DNA from: an uncultured bacterium
GTDB taxonomy: Bacteria > Bacteroidota > Bacteroidia > Chitinophagales > Chitinophagaceae
DNA length: 64,000 nt
NCBI GenBank assembly: GCA_903920455.1
Contig: CAIXLY010000003.1
Location: forward strand, 102,304 to 166,303
Direction: 5' to 3'
Below the pieces are notes generated by a model. That model worked only from the letters and a program-made list of their open reading frames with translations. It had not been told where the DNA came from and did not search any database. The position numbers and the translations under genes were made by a program. Below are positions 3,418 to 41,056 of this stretch, in pieces (the first letter of the stretch is position 1; the number at the start of each line of letters is the position of its first letter).

Positions 3418-4938
3418 ATGCAAAAGAAGATTAAATCTGCGCTGCTTTCGGTTTTTTATAAAGATGGACTTGAGCCCTTGGTTAGAACACTCAATGAACA
3501 TGGTGTTACCATGTATTCAACCGGTGGAACCCAGCAGTTTATTGAACAGCTTGGCATTGAATGCATACCCGTAGAGTCAGTAACAGACTACCCTTCAATT
3601 TTGGGCGGCAGGGTAAAAACTCTCCATCCAAAAGTTTTTGGTGGCATCCTTGCAAGAAGGGCTGTTGATCAAGACCTGAAAGAGATGAAGGAATATCAGA
3701 TTCCTGAGATAGACTTGGTTGTAGTTGACCTGTATCCTTTTGAAGAAACATTGGCCAACACAACCGAAGAAAAGCTCATCATTGAAAAGATTGATATTGG
3801 TGGCCCATCGATGATACGTGCGGCAGGAAAGAATTTCAGCGACCTCTTGGTGATTGCATCAAAATCAGATTATGCTTCAGCCATTGAGATGCTTTCTGCA
3901 CAACAATGTTCTACCACACTGGAACAAAGAAAATCATACGCTGCAAAAGCCTTTCAAATTGTAGCGCATTACGATGTGGTCATTTCGAACTACTTCAATC
4001 CTGAAAACGATACACAGTTTCTTTATTCACAAGGGAATCCCCAAATCATGCGCTACGGAGAAAACCCGCATCAAAAAGGCGTGTTCTTCGGAAAATTATC
4101 CGAGCTATTTAATCAGCTTCATGGAAAAGAACTATCGTACAATAACCTTGTTGATGTGGAAGCTGCAGTACAATTGATCGCAGAATTTAAAGGGGAAACT
4201 GAAAGTACATTTGCCATCATCAAACATACAAACGTGTGTGGTATTTCAACACGCAAGACTACAGAAGAGGCCTGGAAGTATGCACTTCAAGGTGATCCTG
4301 AAAGTGCATTTGGAGGAGTGTTGGTATGCAATACTGCAATAAACAAAGCCACTGCTGAACAAATTAATGAAATCTTTTTTGAGGTGCTCATCGCTCCTGC
4401 ATTCGACAGTGATGCCTTTGAAATTCTGAAAACAAAAAAGAACAGAATTCTGCTTGAACAGATCAAGGACCATGCATCAGACAAACAATTCAAATCATTG
4501 CTCAATGGTGTATTGGTTCAGGGAGTTGATAAAGACAATATAGAAAAATGGGACGAGTCAGGTGCAAGACCATGTACAGAGGCGGAGAAGCTTGATCTAA
4601 CATTCGCCAACAAAATATGCAAGCACCTTAAATCTAATGCCATTGCACTTGCAAAAAATAGGCAAATAATTGGCAAGGGATGTGGTCAAACATCCAGGAT
4701 TGATTCTTTGCGTCAGGCTATTGAAAAAGCCGGTCAATTTAACTTTGATTTAAAAGGTGCTGTTCTTGCGAGCGATGCATTCTTCCCGTTTGACGACTGC
4801 GTGAAGATGAGCCATGCGGCTGGCATTGAAGCATTTATTCAACCAGGAGGATCTATACGCGATAAGGACTCTATCGAATACTGTAAACAGAATGGACTAG
4901 CGATGGTTATTACAGGGATGAGACATTTTAGACACTAA
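3418..4938 (+). CDS. purH: Bifunctional AICAR formyltransferase/IMP cyclohydrolase
   Basis: 506 aa; STGGTQQFIEQLGI, GGRVKTLHPKVFGGIL, RYGENPHQKG motifs. Confidence 0.95.
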   Translation: MQKKIKSALLSVFYKDGLEPLVRTLNEHGVTMYSTGGTQQFIEQLGIECIPVESVTDYPSILGGRVKTLHPKVFGGILARRAVDQDLKEMKEYQIPEIDLVVVDLYPFEETLANTTEEKLIIEKIDIGGPSMIRAAGKNFSDLLVIASKSDYASAIEMLSAQQCSTTLEQRKSYAAKAFQIVAHYDVVISNYFNPENDTQFLYSQGNPQIMRYGENPHQKGVFFGKLSELFNQLHGKELSYNNLVDVEAAVQLIAEFKGETESTFAIIKHTNVCGISTRKTTEEAWKYALQGDPESAFGGVLVCNTAINKATAEQINEIFFEVLIAPAFDSDAFEILKTKKNRILLEQIKDHASDKQFKSLLNGVLVQGVDKDNIEKWDESGARPCTEAEKLDLTFANKICKHLKSNAIALAKNRQIIGKGCGQTSRIDSLRQAIEKAGQFNFDLKGAVLASDAFFPFDDCVKMSHAAGIEAFIQPGGSIRDKDSIEYCKQNGLAMVITGMRHFRH

Positions 4939-4975
4939 CAGGTATTGAAAATAAAGCGTAGACTTCAACACATTA

Positions 4976-5872
4976 ATGAATAATCCTTCTGAAAAAAATA
5001 GTGCGCTCTTTGCGGTAGGTGTGGTTTCCATTCTCTGGGGAACTACCTGGATGGCTTCAAAAATTGCGGTAAGGTCAATGCCCGCATTGCAGGTTTCTGG
5101 GATGAGACATTTGATCGGAGGCAGCCTCTATGTGGGCTATTTCTTTTTTAAAAAATTTCCATTCCCAACCAAAGAACAATTCATTAGAATTTTTTGGGTA
5201 TCCCTAATCATGTTTGTACTCTGTAATGGATTCAGCGTGATGTCTGTTCAATACATACCCAGTGGATTGGCTGCAGTGGTTGGCGCGATGTCGCCACTAT
5301 GGGTTGCGTTGTTGGGATTGCTAATTTTTCGAGATACGAAGCTATCACGTATTACTACAGCGGGATTATTACTTGGCTTTGGTGGCGTACTCATCACCTT
5401 CTACGATTACATCGAAGAACTTGCAAATACCAACTTCATCCTTGGTGTGATCTATGGCCTGATTGCCAGCATCACCTGGGCCCTAGGCACCTTACTCACA
5501 GTGAAAGATTCAAAGAAACTTGATCCTTATTATTCTATGGGATGGCAGATGTTCCTGAGCGGCATCATGCTTTCACTGTTTTCTTTTGCAACAAATCAGC
5601 ATGTGCCAATTAGCAGCATTGGAACAGAGGGCTGGCTTTCACTCACCTACCTTATTGTTGTGGGTTCTGTAATCGCTTTTATGGCATTCATTTATGCGCT
5701 GAAAAGACTTCCTGCAACGCAAGTCTCTATTCATTCATACATCAATCCGCTTGTTGCGATTATTATTGGAGACCTTATGATGCACGAGGGACTAACCGCC
5801 TACCTTGTGATTGGCACAATAGTTACCTTACTGGGTGTTTATTTGGTAAACAGAGGATTTAAGAAAGTATAG
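4976..5872 (+). CDS. EamA/DMT family transporter
   Basis: 298 aa, about 10 TM, WGTTWMASKIAVRSMPALQVSGMRHL EamA signature. Confidence 0.88.
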   Translation: MNNPSEKNSALFAVGVVSILWGTTWMASKIAVRSMPALQVSGMRHLIGGSLYVGYFFFKKFPFPTKEQFIRIFWVSLIMFVLCNGFSVMSVQYIPSGLAAVVGAMSPLWVALLGLLIFRDTKLSRITTAGLLLGFGGVLITFYDYIEELANTNFILGVIYGLIASITWALGTLLTVKDSKKLDPYYSMGWQMFLSGIMLSLFSFATNQHVPISSIGTEGWLSLTYLIVVGSVIAFMAFIYALKRLPATQVSIHSYINPLVAIIIGDLMMHEGLTAYLVIGTIVTLLGVYLVNRGFKKV

Positions 5873-30659: not shown

Positions 30660-32186
30660 ATGGAAAATAAAAAATGTATTCTTCTGATTATGGATGGATG
30701 GGGTCTTGGCTCAGTTCCTTCCAGCGATGTAATCCAACACGCACATGTACCCTTTGTTGCCTCACTATATGACAAATACCCGCATACTACGCTTGTGACA
30801 TGTGGAGAGCCAGTTGGCCTACCTGATGGGCAGATGGGAAATAGCGAAGTCGGACACCTCAATCTAGGTGCCGGAAGAATCGTTTACCAGGAACTGCAAA
30901 GAATTAACGTAGCCATCCGCACAGGTGAACTTCAGAAAAACGAAACATTACTGGCTGCTTTGCATCATGCGAAGAAGAACAATAAAAAACTACACTTGAT
31001 TGGTTTAATCAGTGATGGTGGTGTGCATTCCCATATCAATCATGTCAAAGCAATTACCGACCTCTGCAAAGCAGAAGCTTTAGAAAACGTATTTATCCAT
31101 GCCTTCACCGATGGCAGGGACACAGACCCTAAAAGCGGACTTGCATTTATCACCGAGTTAGAGGAACACCTGAAAACATCAACAGGAAAAATTGCTAGCA
31201 TCACTGGAAGATACTATGCCATGGACCGCGATAAACGTTGGGAAAGGGTAAAGCTAGCATATGATGGCATGGTAAAAGGAGAAGGGCAGCATGCGCATTC
31301 AGCCGTTGAGGCCATTAAGGGGTCTTACGAAAATAATATCACAGATGAATTTATCAAACCGGTGATTTTGGTTGATAAAAATGAACAGCCACTAGCCACA
31401 ATAACAGATGGCGACGTGGTGGTTTGTTTTAACTTCCGTACCGACCGTTGTAGAGAGATCACTGAGGTACTTACACAAAAAGACTTCTCTGAATTTGGCA
31501 TGCAGAAACTGGACTTGCACTACACAACAATGACAGAGTATGACAATACGTTCAAAAACGTACATGTCATTTTTAGAAATGATAACCTGACCAATACTTT
31601 AGGAGAAGTACTTGAAAAGCAGAAAAGAACACAGATCAGGATTGCTGAAACTGAAAAATATCCCCATGTTACTTTTTTCTTTAGTGGAGGGCGAGAAGTG
31701 CCTTTTGAGGGAGAGAAAAGAATTATTGCGGCTTCACCAAAAGTAGCCACCTATGATCTTCAACCCGAAATGAGTGCATTTGAACTTACAGAAAAGATAG
31801 TTCCAGAAATCAACAACAAGACTGCAGATTTTATTTGTCTTAATTATGCCAACGCAGATATGGTTGGCCATACCGGAGTATGGAGCGCTGCCGTGAAAGC
31901 AGTTGAAACCGTAGATTCCTGTGTCAAGCAAGTGGTAGAAGCTGCATTGAACAACGACTATACTGTATTTCTTACTGCCGACCATGGGAATGCAGATTAT
32001 ATGAAAAACGAAGATGGATCGCCCAATACTGCACATACGCTCAACCCTGTTCCACTTTTTGTAATAGACAAGCATTGGAAAGGAAGTGTAAAACCAGGAA
32101 AATTAGGCGACATAGCCCCAACCATTTTGCATATGATGAATATTCCTATTCCAGTTGAAATGACAGGAGAGGTATTAATATCATGA
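30660..32186 (+). CDS. gpmI: 2,3-bisphosphoglycerate-independent phosphoglycerate mutase
   Basis: LLIMDGWGLG, MGNSEVGHLNLGAGRIVYQELQRIN, LTADHGNADYM. Confidence 0.96.
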   Translation: MENKKCILLIMDGWGLGSVPSSDVIQHAHVPFVASLYDKYPHTTLVTCGEPVGLPDGQMGNSEVGHLNLGAGRIVYQELQRINVAIRTGELQKNETLLAALHHAKKNNKKLHLIGLISDGGVHSHINHVKAITDLCKAEALENVFIHAFTDGRDTDPKSGLAFITELEEHLKTSTGKIASITGRYYAMDRDKRWERVKLAYDGMVKGEGQHAHSAVEAIKGSYENNITDEFIKPVILVDKNEQPLATITDGDVVVCFNFRTDRCREITEVLTQKDFSEFGMQKLDLHYTTMTEYDNTFKNVHVIFRNDNLTNTLGEVLEKQKRTQIRIAETEKYPHVTFFFSGGREVPFEGEKRIIAASPKVATYDLQPEMSAFELTEKIVPEINNKTADFICLNYANADMVGHTGVWSAAVKAVETVDSCVKQVVEAALNNDYTVFLTADHGNADYMKNEDGSPNTAHTLNPVPLFVIDKHWKGSVKPGKLGDIAPTILHMMNIPIPVEMTGEVLIS

Positions 32187-34495
32187 TGATAAAATTTCAT
32201 ACTAATTTTTTCAAATGGGCTATGATGATCTTGGCCCATTTGTTTATTGTGCAATCGCATGCACAATCCGCTCCTGATACTACAAAGATTACAGCGTTGA
32301 CCGAGGTGGTTGTATCCGGCACCAAGTTTGTTGAGAAGAAAAAAAATATAGTCCAAAAAATAGACAATATTAACGCTTCATATATCAAGCGGGTAAACGC
32401 ACAAAATACCGGTGACCTCTTGATGAGTACTGGAAATATTTTTGTCCAAAAAAGTCAGCAGGGAGGAAGCAGTCCGGTGATTAGAGGATTTGAGGCAAGC
32501 AGAATTTTATTGATTGTAGATGGAATTAGAATGAACAATGCCATCTATCGTGCGGGTCATTTGCAAAACCTCATAACGGTCGATCAACACACACTTGAAA
32601 ATATAGAAGTCCTGCAAGGACCTGCCTCCACGCTATATGGAAGCGATGCACTTGGAGGTGCAGTGCACATGATTACGAAAAGGCCAACCTTATCTGATAA
32701 TGCTAAAAAGACACAGATCAAGGCAAATGGGTTGATGAGGTATTCAACTGCCAATCAGGAAAATATGGTTCATGCAGACGTGAACATCGGCGCTCATAAA
32801 ATTGCATTTCTTAGCAGCATGACCCTGAGTACATTTAGCGACCTCAGGATGGGGAAAAAAGACAACAAAGACTTCCCTGGATTTGGAACCAGGCCTTTTT
32901 ACATAAGGGCGTATGACGGGATTGTGGGAGATAGCATAATGAGAAACAACAATGAGCGTATACAAAAATATTCAGGGTATAATCAACTTGACCTGATGCA
33001 AAAAGTCTTATTTAAAACAAGTGCTAAATTAGAACAGCTCATCAATTTTCAATTATCAACTTCCTCAAACATACCACGATACGATCGCCTGCAAGATATC
33101 AGGAATGGCAGCTTAAGATACGCGCAATGGTACTACGGTCCACAAGCAAGAAAGCTCTTAGGGTATACTCTCCAACTAAAAGATCAGCCAGGTTTTTTTG
33201 GTGAGTATAAAGCCGTTCTCAGTTATCAAGCAATTGAGGAAAGCCGCATTACCAGGCAATACAAACGCTACGATGAGCTTGACCAACGAAGTGAAAAAGT
33301 TGATGTAATTGGACTCACGATAGATGCAAGAAGAAAAATGAGAAAGGACGAAATTACTTCAGGTGTGGATCTACAATTCAATCATGTTATTTCAACTGCA
33401 CACAGAACCAACTTACTCAATGGACTGATCTCACCACTTGATACCCGATATCCAGATGGAAAGAATAGGATGAGCCATGCGGGAATCTATATTCAGCATA
33501 TCAGAAAAATGAAGGATGATAAAATAGTACTTAACGATGGCATGCGGTATCAGTATGTTTTTCTAAATTCCTCGATAATCAACAATTCGTTCTTTTCATT
33601 GCCAGTGACCGACATAGTGCAGCGCAATGGAGCAATTACAGGCAATATTGGATTGGCCTATATGCCTTCAAAAAACACAAGACTTACCTTAGGTTATTCC
33701 TCAGGATTCCGGGCGCCAAATATTGATGATTTAAGTAAAATATTTGAATCCAGTACTTCCGCCAGACAAGTGGTGGTTCCTAACCCTAGCCTAAGGCCTG
33801 AGTCAACCAACAGTATTGATATTGGCATAAGCCAATCAATCGATAAATCCATTTTCATTGATCTGGGCGGATTTTACACCCTATTCAACAACGCCATTGT
33901 AAAAGCTCCTTTTAAACTCAATGGGCAGGACTCCATCATGTACTACAACACAAATGCACAGGTGCTGGCCAGTCAGAATTTAGGCAGGGCAATTATATAT
34001 GGGGCCAATGCATCCTTTACTGTGAACATTAACAATCGATGGAAATTTTCTAGTACAGCCAACTACACCATCGGAAATTTATTAACTGATCACTCAACCA
34101 CTTCTGCCGTGTATGTCCTCCAACAGGATGGAACCTACGCAATCACCCAGCAATATGTAAAGAGAAAACCCCTTGATCATATCCCTCCTTTTTTTGGAAA
34201 ATTTAGTGGCCTTTACCAAGGCAAGAAATTGTATGCTGAATGCTATATCCATGTAAATGGCTGGAAAAAACTAAATCGTTATAATGTGGATGGTGAAGAC
34301 AATGCACAATATGCCACAGCAATGGGGAGTCCAGCTTGGCAAACACTCAACTTTCGCTTTGGTATTGACCTGCGACCAAAATTACAATTGCAGCTAGCCC
34401 TTGAGAACTTACTGGACCTAAATTACCGATATGTTGCCTCTGGGCTATCGGCACCAGGGAGAAATTTTAGCATCGCAGTCAGGGGGTCTTTGTAA
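32183..34495 (+). CDS. TonB-dependent receptor, haemoglobin/haem-type
   Basis: GGSSPVIRGFEASRILLIVDGIRMNNAIYRAGHLQNL and LQGPASTLYGSDALGGAVHMITKRP; C-terminal LNYRYVASGLSAPGRNFSIAVRGSL. Confidence 0.88.
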   Translation: MMIKFHTNFFKWAMMILAHLFIVQSHAQSAPDTTKITALTEVVVSGTKFVEKKKNIVQKIDNINASYIKRVNAQNTGDLLMSTGNIFVQKSQQGGSSPVIRGFEASRILLIVDGIRMNNAIYRAGHLQNLITVDQHTLENIEVLQGPASTLYGSDALGGAVHMITKRPTLSDNAKKTQIKANGLMRYSTANQENMVHADVNIGAHKIAFLSSMTLSTFSDLRMGKKDNKDFPGFGTRPFYIRAYDGIVGDSIMRNNNERIQKYSGYNQLDLMQKVLFKTSAKLEQLINFQLSTSSNIPRYDRLQDIRNGSLRYAQWYYGPQARKLLGYTLQLKDQPGFFGEYKAVLSYQAIEESRITRQYKRYDELDQRSEKVDVIGLTIDARRKMRKDEITSGVDLQFNHVISTAHRTNLLNGLISPLDTRYPDGKNRMSHAGIYIQHIRKMKDDKIVLNDGMRYQYVFLNSSIINNSFFSLPVTDIVQRNGAITGNIGLAYMPSKNTRLTLGYSSGFRAPNIDDLSKIFESSTSARQVVVPNPSLRPESTNSIDIGISQSIDKSIFIDLGGFYTLFNNAIVKAPFKLNGQDSIMYYNTNAQVLASQNLGRAIIYGANASFTVNINNRWKFSSTANYTIGNLLTDHSTTSAVYVLQQDGTYAITQQYVKRKPLDHIPPFFGKFSGLYQGKKLYAECYIHVNGWKKLNRYNVDGEDNAQYATAMGSPAWQTLNFRFGIDLRPKLQLQLALENLLDLNYRYVASGLSAPGRNFSIAVRGSL

Positions 34496-34588
34496 ATCAA
34501 TCACTTATCAATTCCACTAAAAGATTAGCCTAAAGCAGCGTCAATAAATCAAAAATTGTCTTATTTTCAGAAATCAATCAACGATTTC

Positions 34589-35173
34589 ATGACTGAGGAG
34601 ATGCTTGTCAACGCTTGTCTAAAAAACAATGCAACTGCACAGCAGGAGCTATACCAGAGGTATAGCCCAAAAATGCTGTCTGTTTGCTATCGTTATGCCA
34701 AGACAAGAGAAGATGCCGAAGACATGCTTCAAGAAGGGTTCATTAAGGTTTTCACACAAATCAAACAGTTTGAAAATAGAGGCTCACTTGAAGGATGGAT
34801 TCTAAGAATCATGGTACATACCAGCATCAACCACCTCAAGAAGCATAAAAAGTTCAACGAAAGCCTTGATCTGGCTTTTGCTGGTAACATTATTATCAGG
34901 GAAGATAATATTCCTGGTGCTATTCATGCAAAACAAATCGTTGAATGCATAAGGGCCCTCCCGATGGGATACAGAACAGTACTTAACCTTTATGCCATAG
35001 AGGGTTATTCCCACAAGGAAATTGCCACCCTCCTTGACATTGAAGAAAGTACTAGTAGATCCCAGTACACGAGAGCGAAAAATATGCTAGAGGGTATTCT
35101 AACAAAAAAGAATCTTCTCCAGCCTCAAATAAAAAAAGAAAAGAAATGGTTCTCCCCGATTCGCATTAGTTGA
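34589..35173 (+). CDS. ECF-type RNA polymerase sigma factor (sigma-70 family)
   Basis: RYSPKMLSVCYRYAKTREDAEDMLQEGFIKVFTQIKQFENRGSLEGWILRIM and LPMGYRTVLNLYAIEGYSHKEIATLLDIEESTSRSQYTRAK; ATG at 34589 preferred over TTG. Confidence 0.93.
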   Translation: MTEEMLVNACLKNNATAQQELYQRYSPKMLSVCYRYAKTREDAEDMLQEGFIKVFTQIKQFENRGSLEGWILRIMVHTSINHLKKHKKFNESLDLAFAGNIIIREDNIPGAIHAKQIVECIRALPMGYRTVLNLYAIEGYSHKEIATLLDIEESTSRSQYTRAKNMLEGILTKKNLLQPQIKKEKKWFSPIRIS

Positions 35174-35205
35174 TTCGGAAGAAACAGTTTACGAAAGGAA
35201 GAAAA

Positions 35206-36501
35206 ATGGAAAAATATTCACCAGAGGAGTTTGAAGATATACTTAAGGAGAAATCCGATCAGTATATGTTGTATCCCTCAGACAGGGTATGGGATAATAT
35301 ATTGGACAAATTGCATCCATTTAGAAGGGTTAAATATTTCTCGATATTACTCTTATTTATGGCAGCTGCCTCAACGGCCATCATTCTGAGCAATGAAGAA
35401 TCAAAACATGCAATAGCGGATAGTGGAAGAATTGCTCATGCATTCGTGAAAAATAATCACTTTGAAAGTTTGATTAAGAATCATAACAACGGACAAATCA
35501 AGTTAAATATTGCAGGTACAAAAAAACAAAAACAACCTGCTGCCAGGGTTGAAAAAGTGATAAGCGTTGATCAAAGGCTGGCAGAACATATTGAGTTGAG
35601 TACAAAAAAAATAACACTACCCGTTCCAGAGCAAATTTCAGTGGGTGAGAATAGCATACAACAATCTATAAATAATGTCTTGGCCGAACAGGAAAAAAAG
35701 GAAGCAAAAAAACACAATATTGCTAACACGTTGGTAAGTGTTATTGAAAAGGCAAAAAAAATAAAAAAGAATTCAAGTTGGCAATTCTATATAACTCCTA
35801 CAATAAGTTACAGAAGCCTAAGTGGCCAAGCTAGCAAATCCGTTTATCAATACAGCCAGTACTTCCTCAACACCAATGCACCTTTTGCAAGAGATGTAAA
35901 AGATGCAGTAAATCACAGTCCTGGAATCGGTCTTGAAATTGGAGCATCCATGTACTATCCAATTACAAAAAAATTAAGTTTCAAAATTGGCGGCCAAGTA
36001 AATTATAATCAATACAAAATCAAGGCGTTTAGCTCGGCGCCAGAAATTGCTACCTATGGCATGAATAACTTTATTGGAGGAAACGTGCCTATCAATGCTG
36101 TTTCAGTCTACAGAAATAACACCGGATACTCAAACTCGACACTTAGAAACGAACACTACATGATCTCAATACCGATTGGATTTGATTATAGGGTATTGGG
36201 TAATAAAAAAGTCAATCTCTCCGTTGCATCAACAATTCAGCCTACTTATGTATTCGCCAACTACTCATACCTTATCTCTACGAACCTAAGGAATTATGCA
36301 AAAGAACCAAGCCTAAACAGAAAGTTGAATATCAATGGGGCTTTCGAGGCAAGTTTGAACATACATTCGGGAGGACTAAAATGGAGCATTGCCCCCCAAT
36401 ATCGCTATCAAATGATGTCAAACTTTAAGAACAAGTATCCGATCAGAGAAAACCTGATGGACTTTGGCATCAAGTTTGGCGTAACAAAGAGTATCAACTA
36501 A
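35206..36501 (+). CDS. Putative trans-envelope protein: cytosolic segment, single TM helix, periplasmic linker, outer-membrane beta-barrel-like domain; candidate anti-sigma factor
   Basis: 431 aa; TM YFSILLLFMAAASTAIILS at ~aa 44-62 after LHPFRRVK; beta-rich domain from ~aa 190 (SSWQFYITPTISYRSL...MDFGIKFGVTKSIN); follows the sigma factor by 32 bp. Confidence 0.7.
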   Translation: MEKYSPEEFEDILKEKSDQYMLYPSDRVWDNILDKLHPFRRVKYFSILLLFMAAASTAIILSNEESKHAIADSGRIAHAFVKNNHFESLIKNHNNGQIKLNIAGTKKQKQPAARVEKVISVDQRLAEHIELSTKKITLPVPEQISVGENSIQQSINNVLAEQEKKEAKKHNIANTLVSVIEKAKKIKKNSSWQFYITPTISYRSLSGQASKSVYQYSQYFLNTNAPFARDVKDAVNHSPGIGLEIGASMYYPITKKLSFKIGGQVNYNQYKIKAFSSAPEIATYGMNNFIGGNVPINAVSVYRNNTGYSNSTLRNEHYMISIPIGFDYRVLGNKKVNLSVASTIQPTYVFANYSYLISTNLRNYAKEPSLNRKLNINGAFEASLNIHSGGLKWSIAPQYRYQMMSNFKNKYPIRENLMDFGIKFGVTKSIN

Positions 36502-36594: not shown

Positions 36595-38397
36595 ATGGAC
36601 CCACTTACTTTTTCGTCAATTCAAAAAACCCTACCCAATGCAGCTGGGATCTATAAATATTATGGAGCAGACGGCAACTTGTTATATATAGGGAAAGCCA
36701 AGAATATCCGAAAAAGGGTAAGCTCTTATTTTACCAATGCTAAACTATCTCACAAAACGCACGAATTGATCAAGCAGATCAACAGCATAGAATTTACCAT
36801 CGTAGACTCTGAACATGACGCGCTTCTCCTTGAAAACTCACTCATTAAAGAGTTTAAACCAAAATACAATATTGTATTAAAGGATGATAAAACATATCCT
36901 TATATCGTAATTAAAAAAGAACCATTTCCAAGGGTGTTCTTAACAAGAAGGAAAATTGCAGATGGCGCTGAATACATTGGACCTTATACCTCTACTGCCA
37001 AGGTTCGCGACTTGCTTGAATTTATAAAACAACAAATACCACTAAGGACTTGCTCACTTAACCTGACGGAAAAAAATATCAACAACAATAAATTTAAAGT
37101 ATGCCTTGAATATCACCTTGGCAATTGCAAAGGCCCTTGTACTGGATTGCAATCAGCGAATGACTATGCAGCCGGAATAGAAGCCGTCAGACAAATACTC
37201 AGGGGAAATTTACGCAGTGTAATAACTGATTACAAACACCAACAAGAACAATATATTGAAGTGCTGGAGTTTGAAAAGGCAGAGATAGTTCAACAAAAGA
37301 TCAATGCACTAAAAAACTATAGATTTTCCTCGGTGGTAGTAAGTTCACGCATAGGCGACTTAGATGTATTTGCAACTACTGAGTACAAAGATGAGATCGC
37401 AGTAAGCTATTTGTCTGTTCGAAACGGAACAATAAACAACTCCGGAAATCATGCCTTCCGAGTGAAAATTGAGGAGAAAGCGGAGGAAATATTGCCTCAG
37501 GCAATCGTGTATTTTCAGAAGCTTTACAATAGCGATTGCAAAGAGATTGTTGTGCCCATTTCTCTAGATTTTGGATTCGAGAATTATAAAATTACAGTCC
37601 CAAAAACCGGAGAGAAAAAGAAACTGCTTGATCTTGCCAAAACAAATGCAGATTTTTTCATGGGAGAGATCAGACGAAAGAACACACTAAACAATCTGAT
37701 ACAAGATGATGATAAAACCACCTTACTTAAGGCGGTAAAAGAGGCTTTATCGCTTCCTGCCATTCCAATTCATATTGAATGCTTTGACAACTCTAACTTT
37801 CAGGGCAGCTATCCGGTTTCTGCAATGGTCTGTTTTAAAGATGGACTACCAAGTAAGCAAGACTACAGACGCTACAATGTTGAAAGTGTTACAGGAATCA
37901 ATGATTTTGCATCAATGAAAGAAGTTGTGAAAAGAAGATATAGCAGACTGATTCAAGAAAATGTAACACTTCCTCAGTTGGTCATCATCGATGGTGGCAA
38001 AGGTCAGCTAAGCGCTGCTATGGAAGCAATTCATGAACTTGGACTTACAGGTAAAATGACATTGGTTGGTCTGGCAAAAAATGTAGAAGAGATATTTTTT
38101 GTGGGCGACAAAGAGTCGCTGAAGCTTGGATACCAAAGTGATGTCCTCCGTTTTATCAGGGGAATTAGAGATGAAGTTCACCAATATGGAATAACCTTTC
38201 ATAGAAACAAAAGAAGCAAAGGAACATTCACCAACGAACTAGAACAAATTGAAGGAATAGGAAAGAAAACAATAGAGGAGCTCTTGCTTACATTTCGGTC
38301 AGTAAAGAATATCAAGAATGCATCACCAGAGGAGTTGGCAGATGTTGTAGGACAAAAGAAAGCGGGGATTATTCAAGATCACTTTAAAAAACACTAA
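36595..38397 (+). CDS. uvrC: Excinuclease ABC subunit C
   Basis: GIYKYYGADGNLLYIGKAKNIRKRVSSYF GIY-YIG; ECFDNSNFQGSYPVSAMVCF. Confidence 0.96.
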   Translation: MDPLTFSSIQKTLPNAAGIYKYYGADGNLLYIGKAKNIRKRVSSYFTNAKLSHKTHELIKQINSIEFTIVDSEHDALLLENSLIKEFKPKYNIVLKDDKTYPYIVIKKEPFPRVFLTRRKIADGAEYIGPYTSTAKVRDLLEFIKQQIPLRTCSLNLTEKNINNNKFKVCLEYHLGNCKGPCTGLQSANDYAAGIEAVRQILRGNLRSVITDYKHQQEQYIEVLEFEKAEIVQQKINALKNYRFSSVVVSSRIGDLDVFATTEYKDEIAVSYLSVRNGTINNSGNHAFRVKIEEKAEEILPQAIVYFQKLYNSDCKEIVVPISLDFGFENYKITVPKTGEKKKLLDLAKTNADFFMGEIRRKNTLNNLIQDDDKTTLLKAVKEALSLPAIPIHIECFDNSNFQGSYPVSAMVCFKDGLPSKQDYRRYNVESVTGINDFASMKEVVKRRYSRLIQENVTLPQLVIIDGGKGQLSAAMEAIHELGLTGKMTLVGLAKNVEEIFFVGDKESLKLGYQSDVLRFIRGIRDEVHQYGITFHRNKRSKGTFTNELEQIEGIGKKTIEELLLTFRSVKNIKNASPEELADVVGQKKAGIIQDHFKKH

Positions 38398-38440: not shown

Positions 38441-39484
38441 TTAATACGACCAAAGATCGAGTTCGAAATTAAAGATCTTGTTTTTAATATTATCTCCTTC
38501 AAGTAATTTAAGAATATCATCCTTAATATACTGCTTGATGAATAGGTCATACGGATTTTCGATAGATGACTTAACGATGTAGCTTGAAAAATATCTGCTT
38601 TCAAACAACTCTTCCCAGCTCATTCTTGCGCCGAAATTTTTTGGATTGTACACTTCGTACAAAGCTAAGATAGGTCTGAGGTCAGGGTAGTAAATCCAAA
38701 ATATTGGAGATTCTCCCAATACAGTACCGGCATCATCAACATAGGTCTTTATTGGTGCTATACCAATTATCCGAGCAAACATACGAGATGACTCTTTGTC
38801 AAATATCCAATCCTCTTTGATCCGAAATTTCGTAATGTCATCAGGATTAAACTCTCTACACACTAGTGAGTCCCTATAAATTCCTTTAGAACCAGTTGGA
38901 TCTTTTGCCCAATCAATTACCTGAACAGAATCACATCTGCCTGATATAACCTCACCAACCCTTGCAATGGTCATTGGTGTTGTAAAGCGATCATCTACAT
39001 TTGGGTCAAACGCCGTGACATCCCCCTTTCTGATAGAACGCAAAAGAATATTGATGAAACGTTGATTTCCATTATCGTCTTCAGCCTTGAACCTAAAGGG
39101 AAGATTCATTTTTTCTTTAATATCAATCTCTCTCCACACACGCTCACGATACCAAGCATCATCTTCGCGAATATGCTCGTAAGGCAGTGGGACTCTGCTT
39201 TTAACAAGACTCCTTTCGATGGCTGCATCCGGACGAAGCGAAACCCTTGTAGAATCAAAAGCAAAGGGATCCTTCGGAGGTGCTACTGGAGCAGGTTTAA
39301 TTGTATCTGCCGAAACTTTTTGAGTAGTTGCATCCAGCACTTGGGCGTCGGCTGTATTATTAGCAGCGGCTGTAGTCTTTTTAGGCGCTGCCTTTTTCTT
39401 TTTTGTCTGCGCCTGGATATCTCCACTGGAGACCATAGCGAATACAAAAGCAACAAAAATTGAACTGGTCAGGTAGCGTTTCAT
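38441..39484 (-). CDS. gldN: Type IX secretion/gliding protein GldN
   Basis: Signal peptide; IREDDAWYRERVWREIDIKEKMNLPFRF; follows gldM. Confidence 0.92.
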   Translation of the reverse strand: MKRYLTSSIFVAFVFAMVSSGDIQAQTKKKKAAPKKTTAAANNTADAQVLDATTQKVSADTIKPAPVAPPKDPFAFDSTRVSLRPDAAIERSLVKSRVPLPYEHIREDDAWYRERVWREIDIKEKMNLPFRFKAEDDNGNQRFINILLRSIRKGDVTAFDPNVDDRFTTPMTIARVGEVISGRCDSVQVIDWAKDPTGSKGIYRDSLVCREFNPDDITKFRIKEDWIFDKESSRMFARIIGIAPIKTYVDDAGTVLGESPIFWIYYPDLRPILALYEVYNPKNFGARMSWEELFESRYFSSYIVKSSIENPYDLFIKQYIKDDILKLLEGDNIKNKIFNFELDLWSY

Positions 39485-39508
39485 AATATTTCTTTTATTC
39501 AAGTTCAT

Positions 39509-41056
39509 TTATTTCAAATTGTATGAGAGGCCGGATGGCAATACCCTCACTCTTCCATCTGGACCTTTCACCATGATGTCAGTTATTGCAACCAGTGCAC
39601 CAGGCTTAAGACGATTAATTAACGAAGCTGCAGCGCCATCCCAACGAGCTCCTTTATTTTCAACAGGGGCATAATCTGGTATATCGGCACTGATTGCACC
39701 AATTTTATAACTCACTACTTCAAATGGAGCATCGAATTCAGAATCCTCAAGCTTAGCAATGATTCCACCCATTGCTTTGAAAGATGCAGATGGAACTGGA
39801 CCAGGCTTAAGGTTACCCACCAATGCAGTTGGGTTCGGCAACTGCTTCACCCTAAACGACACCTTACCTGAGGCCTTCCCCTCGACAAGTACAGTTACAG
39901 TATGTTCTCCATAATTACCTGCAGAAGGTTTTACAATATATTTATTACCGCTTACCTTGGTGATAGATCCTCCACTGAACTGGGCAGAAACCTTTTCACT
40001 TCCTGCACCTGCAGTGATGGTAAGTGGGTTGTCAACGCCTATATAAAGTACGTTCATCTTATCTGGGGAAACTGCAACACCAGATGGGGCACCAACTGTA
40101 TAATCAATTTTTTTAGAGATTGTTTTTTGCTCGCCAGTATTCGGATCAATGTAGGCTACGCTTACATTCATGGTTCTTGTTCCCGTTCCACCGACGTTAA
40201 ATTTTGTTTCGGCTACCCCGTTTGCGTTAACAGGAATACCTCTTCCGTCAATACTAACAATTGGCTTCACATTTGAGTTGAATGCACCAAGTCCAGCTAC
40301 AATTGTCAACTCCTCACCTGGCATAAGATAGGAAGAACTCATCCCAACCAAAGGCTCAAACTTGTCCATAATCAACTTTACAGCACCGACCTGATTGATA
40401 CAGAAAGTAGCGGCTAAGTTCTCGGAATTTTTGATGTCGTTTTGGAATTTACTCAGGATGGTGAGTGAGGCGACTGTTGGCGTCATGTGGAAATAACTCT
40501 TGGTCCAATCTTTTAGTTCATCACCCGTGGAGGTATTGCCTGCGGAAGACTTAGGCACTTCAAGGTTTAATGGAAGTTTACCACCGATTTGCGCGGCCAT
40601 TTCAGGATCAATTGCAAGTAACTTAGACTTGAACTCTGCTAACTTATCATAAAGAATCTTGCCATTCCCTTTTTGATCAAAATACCTAGTTGAGGCATCA
40701 ATATTATCTTCCCTGAATACACCAGTCTCAGGATCCAAATCTGACTCTTGCTTTAACGCAAGCTTGAACCCCTCGAGCAAATCATAGCTCTCAGCGGCAA
40801 TGACACGTATTTGATCAGCTTTTGGCTTCCAAATTGCAGCTTTTTCTGCAGTTTTTGGATCTTTAATGAGCTCATCAAATGAGCTATAAATACCTGTAGT
40901 TGATGTATTAAGCACTGCATTTGATTCCCGAAGGCTATTGTCAACTACCTTGAAGGCATTGAGGATTTCAGCAGATACATTCAGCGCTAGAAGTGCAGTT
41001 AACACCAAGTACATGATGTTAATCATCTTCTGCCGCGGCTCTTTTGGTAGTGACAT
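39509..41056 (-). CDS. gldM: Type IX secretion/gliding motor protein GldM
   Basis: MSLPKEPRQKMINIMYLVLTALLALNVSAEILNAFKVVDNSL. Confidence 0.95.
   Translation of the reverse strand: MSLPKEPRQKMINIMYLVLTALLALNVSAEILNAFKVVDNSLRESNAVLNTSTTGIYSSFDELIKDPKTAEKAAIWKPKADQIRVIAAESYDLLEGFKLALKQESDLDPETGVFREDNIDASTRYFDQKGNGKILYDKLAEFKSKLLAIDPEMAAQIGGKLPLNLEVPKSSAGNTSTGDELKDWTKSYFHMTPTVASLTILSKFQNDIKNSENLAATFCINQVGAVKLIMDKFEPLVGMSSSYLMPGEELTIVAGLGAFNSNVKPIVSIDGRGIPVNANGVAETKFNVGGTGTRTMNVSVAYIDPNTGEQKTISKKIDYTVGAPSGVAVSPDKMNVLYIGVDNPLTITAGAGSEKVSAQFSGGSITKVSGNKYIVKPSAGNYGEHTVTVLVEGKASGKVSFRVKQLPNPTALVGNLKPGPVPSASFKAMGGIIAKLEDSEFDAPFEVVSYKIGAISADIPDYAPVENKGARWDGAAASLINRLKPGALVAITDIMVKGPDGRVRVLPSGLSYNLK

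Follow-up and report, generated by a model that had tools for sequence, protein, structure and literature searches.

A conserved ECF sigma factor and its putative envelope-spanning anti-sigma factor of the Dma/Reo kind in Chitinophagaceae, with split relatives in other Bacteroidota

Introduction

The founding report on the Dma proteins is said to be that of Pardue in PNAS in 2024, on the pairs Dma1-Das1 and Dma2-Das2. These proteins consist of an anti-sigma head, a transmembrane helix, a disordered tether and a beta-barrel, their deletion acts via the cognate sigma factor, and NigD1 is the output of Dma1 (Pardue et al. 2026, PMC13088901). Evans et al. (2022, PMC9308784) described an anti-sigma factor, encoded 3' of its sigma gene, whose predicted course leads across the periplasm to a terminal outer-membrane barrel; in Phocaeicola vulgatus the adjacent sigma gene was up 33-fold on induction (PMC9308784). 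Reo is described as spanning all compartments (PMC13114119), and the mutants of Dma1, Dma2 and Reo show the behaviour of repressors of the adjacent sigma factor (PMC13088901, PMC9308784). The Dma family is of interest for the way in which a single chain comes to sit in two membranes and conveys the state of the outer one.

Here, we analyse a gene pair from an uncultured member of the Chitinophagaceae, within a stretch of 64,000 nucleotides (hereafter the window). An earlier note, made from the sequence of the window, had proposed that the gene following an ECF sigma factor encodes one chain running from the cytoplasm to the outer membrane, and had implied that this architecture was novel. The anatomy is now supported, since it is the published layout of Dma and Reo and the N-terminus is homologous by profile, and no result matched an outcome that the note had listed as refuting it; the novelty is not, because the architecture had already been published.

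Results

A sigma factor and a partner that recur together

Both genes lie on the + strand, as the note had placed them, and are separated by 32 bp (Table 1). The sigma factor matches Sigma70_r2 (2.6e-18) and Sigma70_r4_2 (1.3e-13) in Pfam, as well as TIGR02937, and most of its orthologues are 62-75% identical to it, always with an adjoining partner. The partner has an orthologue in 104 of the 150 genomes searched in this family, and there is a single copy in the window's own genome; a close relative, L031 from a Chitinophagales MAG, has 45% identity in the best segment, which by itself would make that order the probable source of the window. The sigma gene is directly upstream and on the same strand in all 61 orthologous loci examined. 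Across the phylum, the N-terminal head was accompanied by an adjacent sigma gene in 25/25 loci of the first check and then in 79/79 further ones. The recurrence that the note had suggested was borne out by the genomic survey, and the presence of the pair in 61/61 orthologous loci and more than 100 distant ones indicates that neither the pairing nor the layout arose by chance.

Table 1. Features of the gene pair and its surroundings, in positions of the window
Feature	Position	Strand	Basis
ECF-type promoter 5' of the sigma gene (GCAGC-N17-TGTCT), where autoregulation probably acts	34535..34561	+	conserved dyad
ECF sigma factor gene	34589..35173	+	194 aa from ATG at 34589; Pfam
Partner (Dma-type, 431 aa)	35206..36501	+	layout conserved in 62 sequences; homologous N-terminus beside ECF sigma genes across Bacteroidota
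Partner residues 1-43, predicted cytoplasmic anti-sigma domain	35206..35334	+	low entropy, A4 profile
Partner residues 44-62, the only predicted inner-membrane helix, its charge bias pointing to N-in	35335..35391	+	hydropathy, K/R bias
Partner residues 63-191, predicted hypervariable periplasmic tether	35392..35778	+	alignment, composition
Partner residues 192-431, predicted outer-membrane beta-barrel, ~8-10 strands	35779..36498	+	PF13568 in relatives, beta moment
uvrC, conserved downstream neighbour (context)	36595..38397	+	Pfam; same strand in 55/61 loci

The gene gpmI lies upstream of the pair in 34/61 loci. Further along the window, the - strand carries two genes of the type IX secretion and gliding machinery, gldN and gldM, at 38441-41056. 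The same family also has a second, paralogous sigma-Dma pair (L226-L233), often followed by a lipoprotein-like gene.

Anatomy of the partner

The alignment of 62 chains separates a conserved N-terminal block and C-terminal domain from a variable linker. The head (residues 1-43) is gap-free and of low entropy, with a motif made of E10, P24-S25, W29 and LH36-37, in which W29 is invariant and P24 and S25 are nearly so. It is followed by the hydrophobic peak of the window protein, which has no equally hydrophobic segment elsewhere; across the 62 sequences the helix starts at a median of residue 46, its position being fixed and its sequence not. Four K/R occur in the 12 residues before the helix against one in the 12 that follow, which fits the polar N-terminus and single internal N-in helix described in the note. 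The linker has the length given there (about 130 aa, in fact 129), but its composition is not strictly Lys/Gln-rich: it is polar and rich in K, I, N and E. In relatives it is hypervariable and ranges from 118 to 284 aa, never less; Cys is absent from it, as in the window. Such a lower limit is what one would expect of a tether that must be long enough to reach across the periplasm, and we estimate that 129 residues could stretch to ~45 nm.

The C-terminal ~240 aa, which the note had called beta-rich, have a beta hydrophobic moment of 1.13 at 170 degrees across the 62 orthologues, well above the controls (0.86 for shuffled sequences and 0.80 for the linker). PF13568 (OMP_b-brl_2) is matched by 43 of 60 aligned relatives, with a best value of 1.2e-10, and at the level of the family the domain is predicted to be an outer-membrane barrel. 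On its own, the window protein has no match in Pfam, and NCBIfam gave one trivial sub-threshold model; annotation pipelines may therefore leave it unnamed, instead of calling it an outer-membrane barrel as the note had expected. A PDB profile search of the partner returned only coiled-coil or composition matches, and a search for viral relatives found none. Two AlphaFold2 runs on two sequences (the window protein and L031) gave pLDDT of 30 and 34, with an all-beta C-terminal model of low confidence; we attribute these values below 40 to the input of only two sequences.

Relation to the Dma/Reo family

A profile of the 70 N-terminal residues, built with the window sequence included (A4), has matches in 146 of 393 Bacteroidota genomes. 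Among these are sigma-Dma pairs divergent from nigD in two genomes (L251 and L252; E of 4e-6 and 9e-5), whose chains match OMP_b-brl/OMP_b-brl_2. The presence of NigD genes suggests that these two genomes are probably from Bacteroidales. NigD1 is the output of Dma1 (PMC13088901), and we take the nigD-adjacent matches as placing the window pair in the Dma family at the level of profiles, in a comparison made through these two pairs.

Promoter and candidate regulon

A dyad, TGCAGC-N15/16-TTGTCTA, precedes most of the 61 sigma genes, its -10 part ending ~25 nt before the start codon. The exact form GCAGC-N16-TGTCT is present at 39/61 sigma genes, against at most 6 in shuffled sets, and the window has a single match to the motif, with a spacing of N17. 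In 12 + 17 other genomes the strict motif gave 29 matches, 17 of them at the sigma gene, and the reversed control gave 0; one of the promoter patterns searched covered only the longer spacings. Other clades have their own dyads 5' of the sigma gene, for example GCAAC-N18-GTCTA (11/13) and GCAAC-N17-CATCT (8/8). This conservation of ECF-type dyads argues for autoregulation, and the sigma gene is probably transcribed by its own product from a clade-specific promoter.

In four genomes the motif is also present ~35-165 bp 5' of SusC-type genes (L262, at G000:C18:5316-5342, L271, L294 and L299), including the window's own (G000:C18). Given the few cases, these genes are only a lead as candidate members of the regulon.

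Split and other architectures

The 79 further head loci, all with an adjacent ECF sigma gene, include 40 long chains, many of which match barrel families, and 39 short ones (130-331 aa as called). In 38 of the 39 short-chain loci there is a downstream gene with a hydrophobic N-terminus, at a median gap of 51 bp; in L190, the ORF next to the short chain is probably spurious. By a generic test for signal peptides, the downstream genes of split and fused loci could not be told apart (38/38 vs 17/20), so Pfam barrel matches were used instead: the genes downstream of short chains match OMP_b-brl_2 in 19/38 cases and OMP_b-brl in 2/38, two sets that may overlap, and the control genes downstream of long chains (n=19) have no barrel family among those listed. 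On the sigma tree, the fused and split labels require 3 changes, against ~30 when shuffled. The split relatives (L156-L192) can be illustrated by L157, with a short anti-sigma factor at 3567-4316 and a barrel-type protein with its own signal peptide at 4449-5261.

LVIVD repeats were observed in 7 of the 19 genes downstream of fused loci. A third architecture adjoins an ECF sigma gene in L225 (3123-5495, - strand) and L235 (665-2908, - strand), in which the same head and helix are followed by a TonB plug, a von Willebrand A domain and a Por secretion tail.

Discussion

Our preferred reading, to which we give a probability of about 0.86, is that the two genes encode a sigma factor and an anti-sigma factor of the Dma/Reo kind, working by sequestration, release upon envelope disturbance and autoamplification. 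By analogy with the characterised homologues, the partner is expected to repress the sigma factor. Residues 1-43 would bind the sigma factor and hold it at the inner membrane, where residues 44-62 would anchor the chain, and the tether would cross the periplasm to a barrel inserted in the outer membrane. A perturbation of the barrel, of the outer membrane or of the tether, be it envelope damage, a ligand or the misassembly of the barrel, might then release the sigma factor by a conformational or a proteolytic step. Once free, it would transcribe its own operon from the GCAGC/TGTCT promoter, resulting in autoamplification, and may also drive a small envelope regulon, possibly with SusC/SusD transporters.

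The gene directly upstream in the window encodes a TonB-dependent receptor (32183-34495), and some relatives also have receptors in this position, which raises the question of whether the locus is FecIR-like, with the receptor as the sensor and the 431-aa protein as a conventional anti-sigma factor that has a domain in the periplasm. We regard this as improbable. The window receptor has plug and barrel domains only and lacks the N-terminal signalling domain, a matching receptor is missing or on the opposite strand in most of the 61 loci, Pfam and NCBIfam find no FecR domain in the partner, and the sigma factor scores 84 against TIGR02985, whose cut-off is 126. A FecIRA system relying on the upstream receptor was rejected on the absence of FecR, of the signalling domain and of a conserved association with the pair.

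Slightly less probable still is that the helix is a cleaved signal sequence, leaving a free outer-membrane barrel and 43 N-terminal residues that act separately. The small residues AAASTA within the helix would suit cleavage, but the conserved domain that precedes it far exceeds a normal n-region, and in the split loci this head and helix occur in a chain that has no barrel, while the barrel has a signal peptide of its own. We give the least credit to the idea, compatible with the sequence as such, that the partner activates the sigma factor, or that the barrel is a porin under regulation with no part in signalling: the published homologues are repressors (PMC13088901, PMC9308784), and many loci across the phylum retain a barrel, either within the chain or in the gene that follows.

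If the Dma/Reo reading is extended to the split loci, Dma may be one form of a modular system of Bacteroidota in which a split barrel signals by touching the periplasmic tail of the anti-sigma factor, both forms being autoregulated from clade-specific ECF promoters. We lean towards this broader view with some reserve. Were it true, a covalent tether would not be needed to signal from the outer membrane to the cytoplasm. We found no description of the split form in the literature searched, where it looks new together with the clade-specific promoter and the candidate SusC targets that share it. The window pair itself extends the Dma family to another lineage, in which many genomes retain a copy, the promoter is conserved and the gene neighbourhood varies little. 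The promoter is a ready reporter and the split relatives offer a natural comparison on whether the covalent link matters, and we consider the split form and the series of promoters to be the parts most worth following.

Among known systems, FecI-FecR-FecA resembles the proposed unit in that control over an ECF sigma factor is exerted from the outer membrane by way of an anti-sigma factor bound to the membrane; it uses three proteins, including a TonB-dependent receptor with a signalling domain, whereas in the window a single chain carries a small predicted barrel and lacks a FecR domain. The split loci (e.g. L156, L157, L171) share the head and helix, the neighbouring ECF sigma gene and an ECF-type promoter, and differ in that another gene, downstream, encodes the barrel-type protein, which has a signal peptide of its own. 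EcfO-Reo of Bacteroides fragilis and Phocaeicola vulgatus likewise has a sigma gene followed by that of a large anti-sigma factor whose predicted structure bridges the periplasm and includes an outer-membrane barrel, and its sigma gene is induced with its regulon (PMC9308784, PMC13114119); its triggers are antibacterial toxins and oxidative stress and its outputs NigD/O-antigen, neither of which is established for the window pair. Dma1-Das1 and Dma2-Das2 of Bacteroides thetaiotaomicron also set an ECF sigma factor beside a single chain with head, transmembrane helix, long disordered tether and C-terminal barrel. The head of the window partner is homologous to theirs by profile, yet it comes from a different lineage, with low sequence identity, and, unlike in the setting of Dma1, there is no adjoining nigD. 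The architecture is one already published in gut Bacteroides, and the window pair is a conserved member of it from another branch of Bacteroidota.
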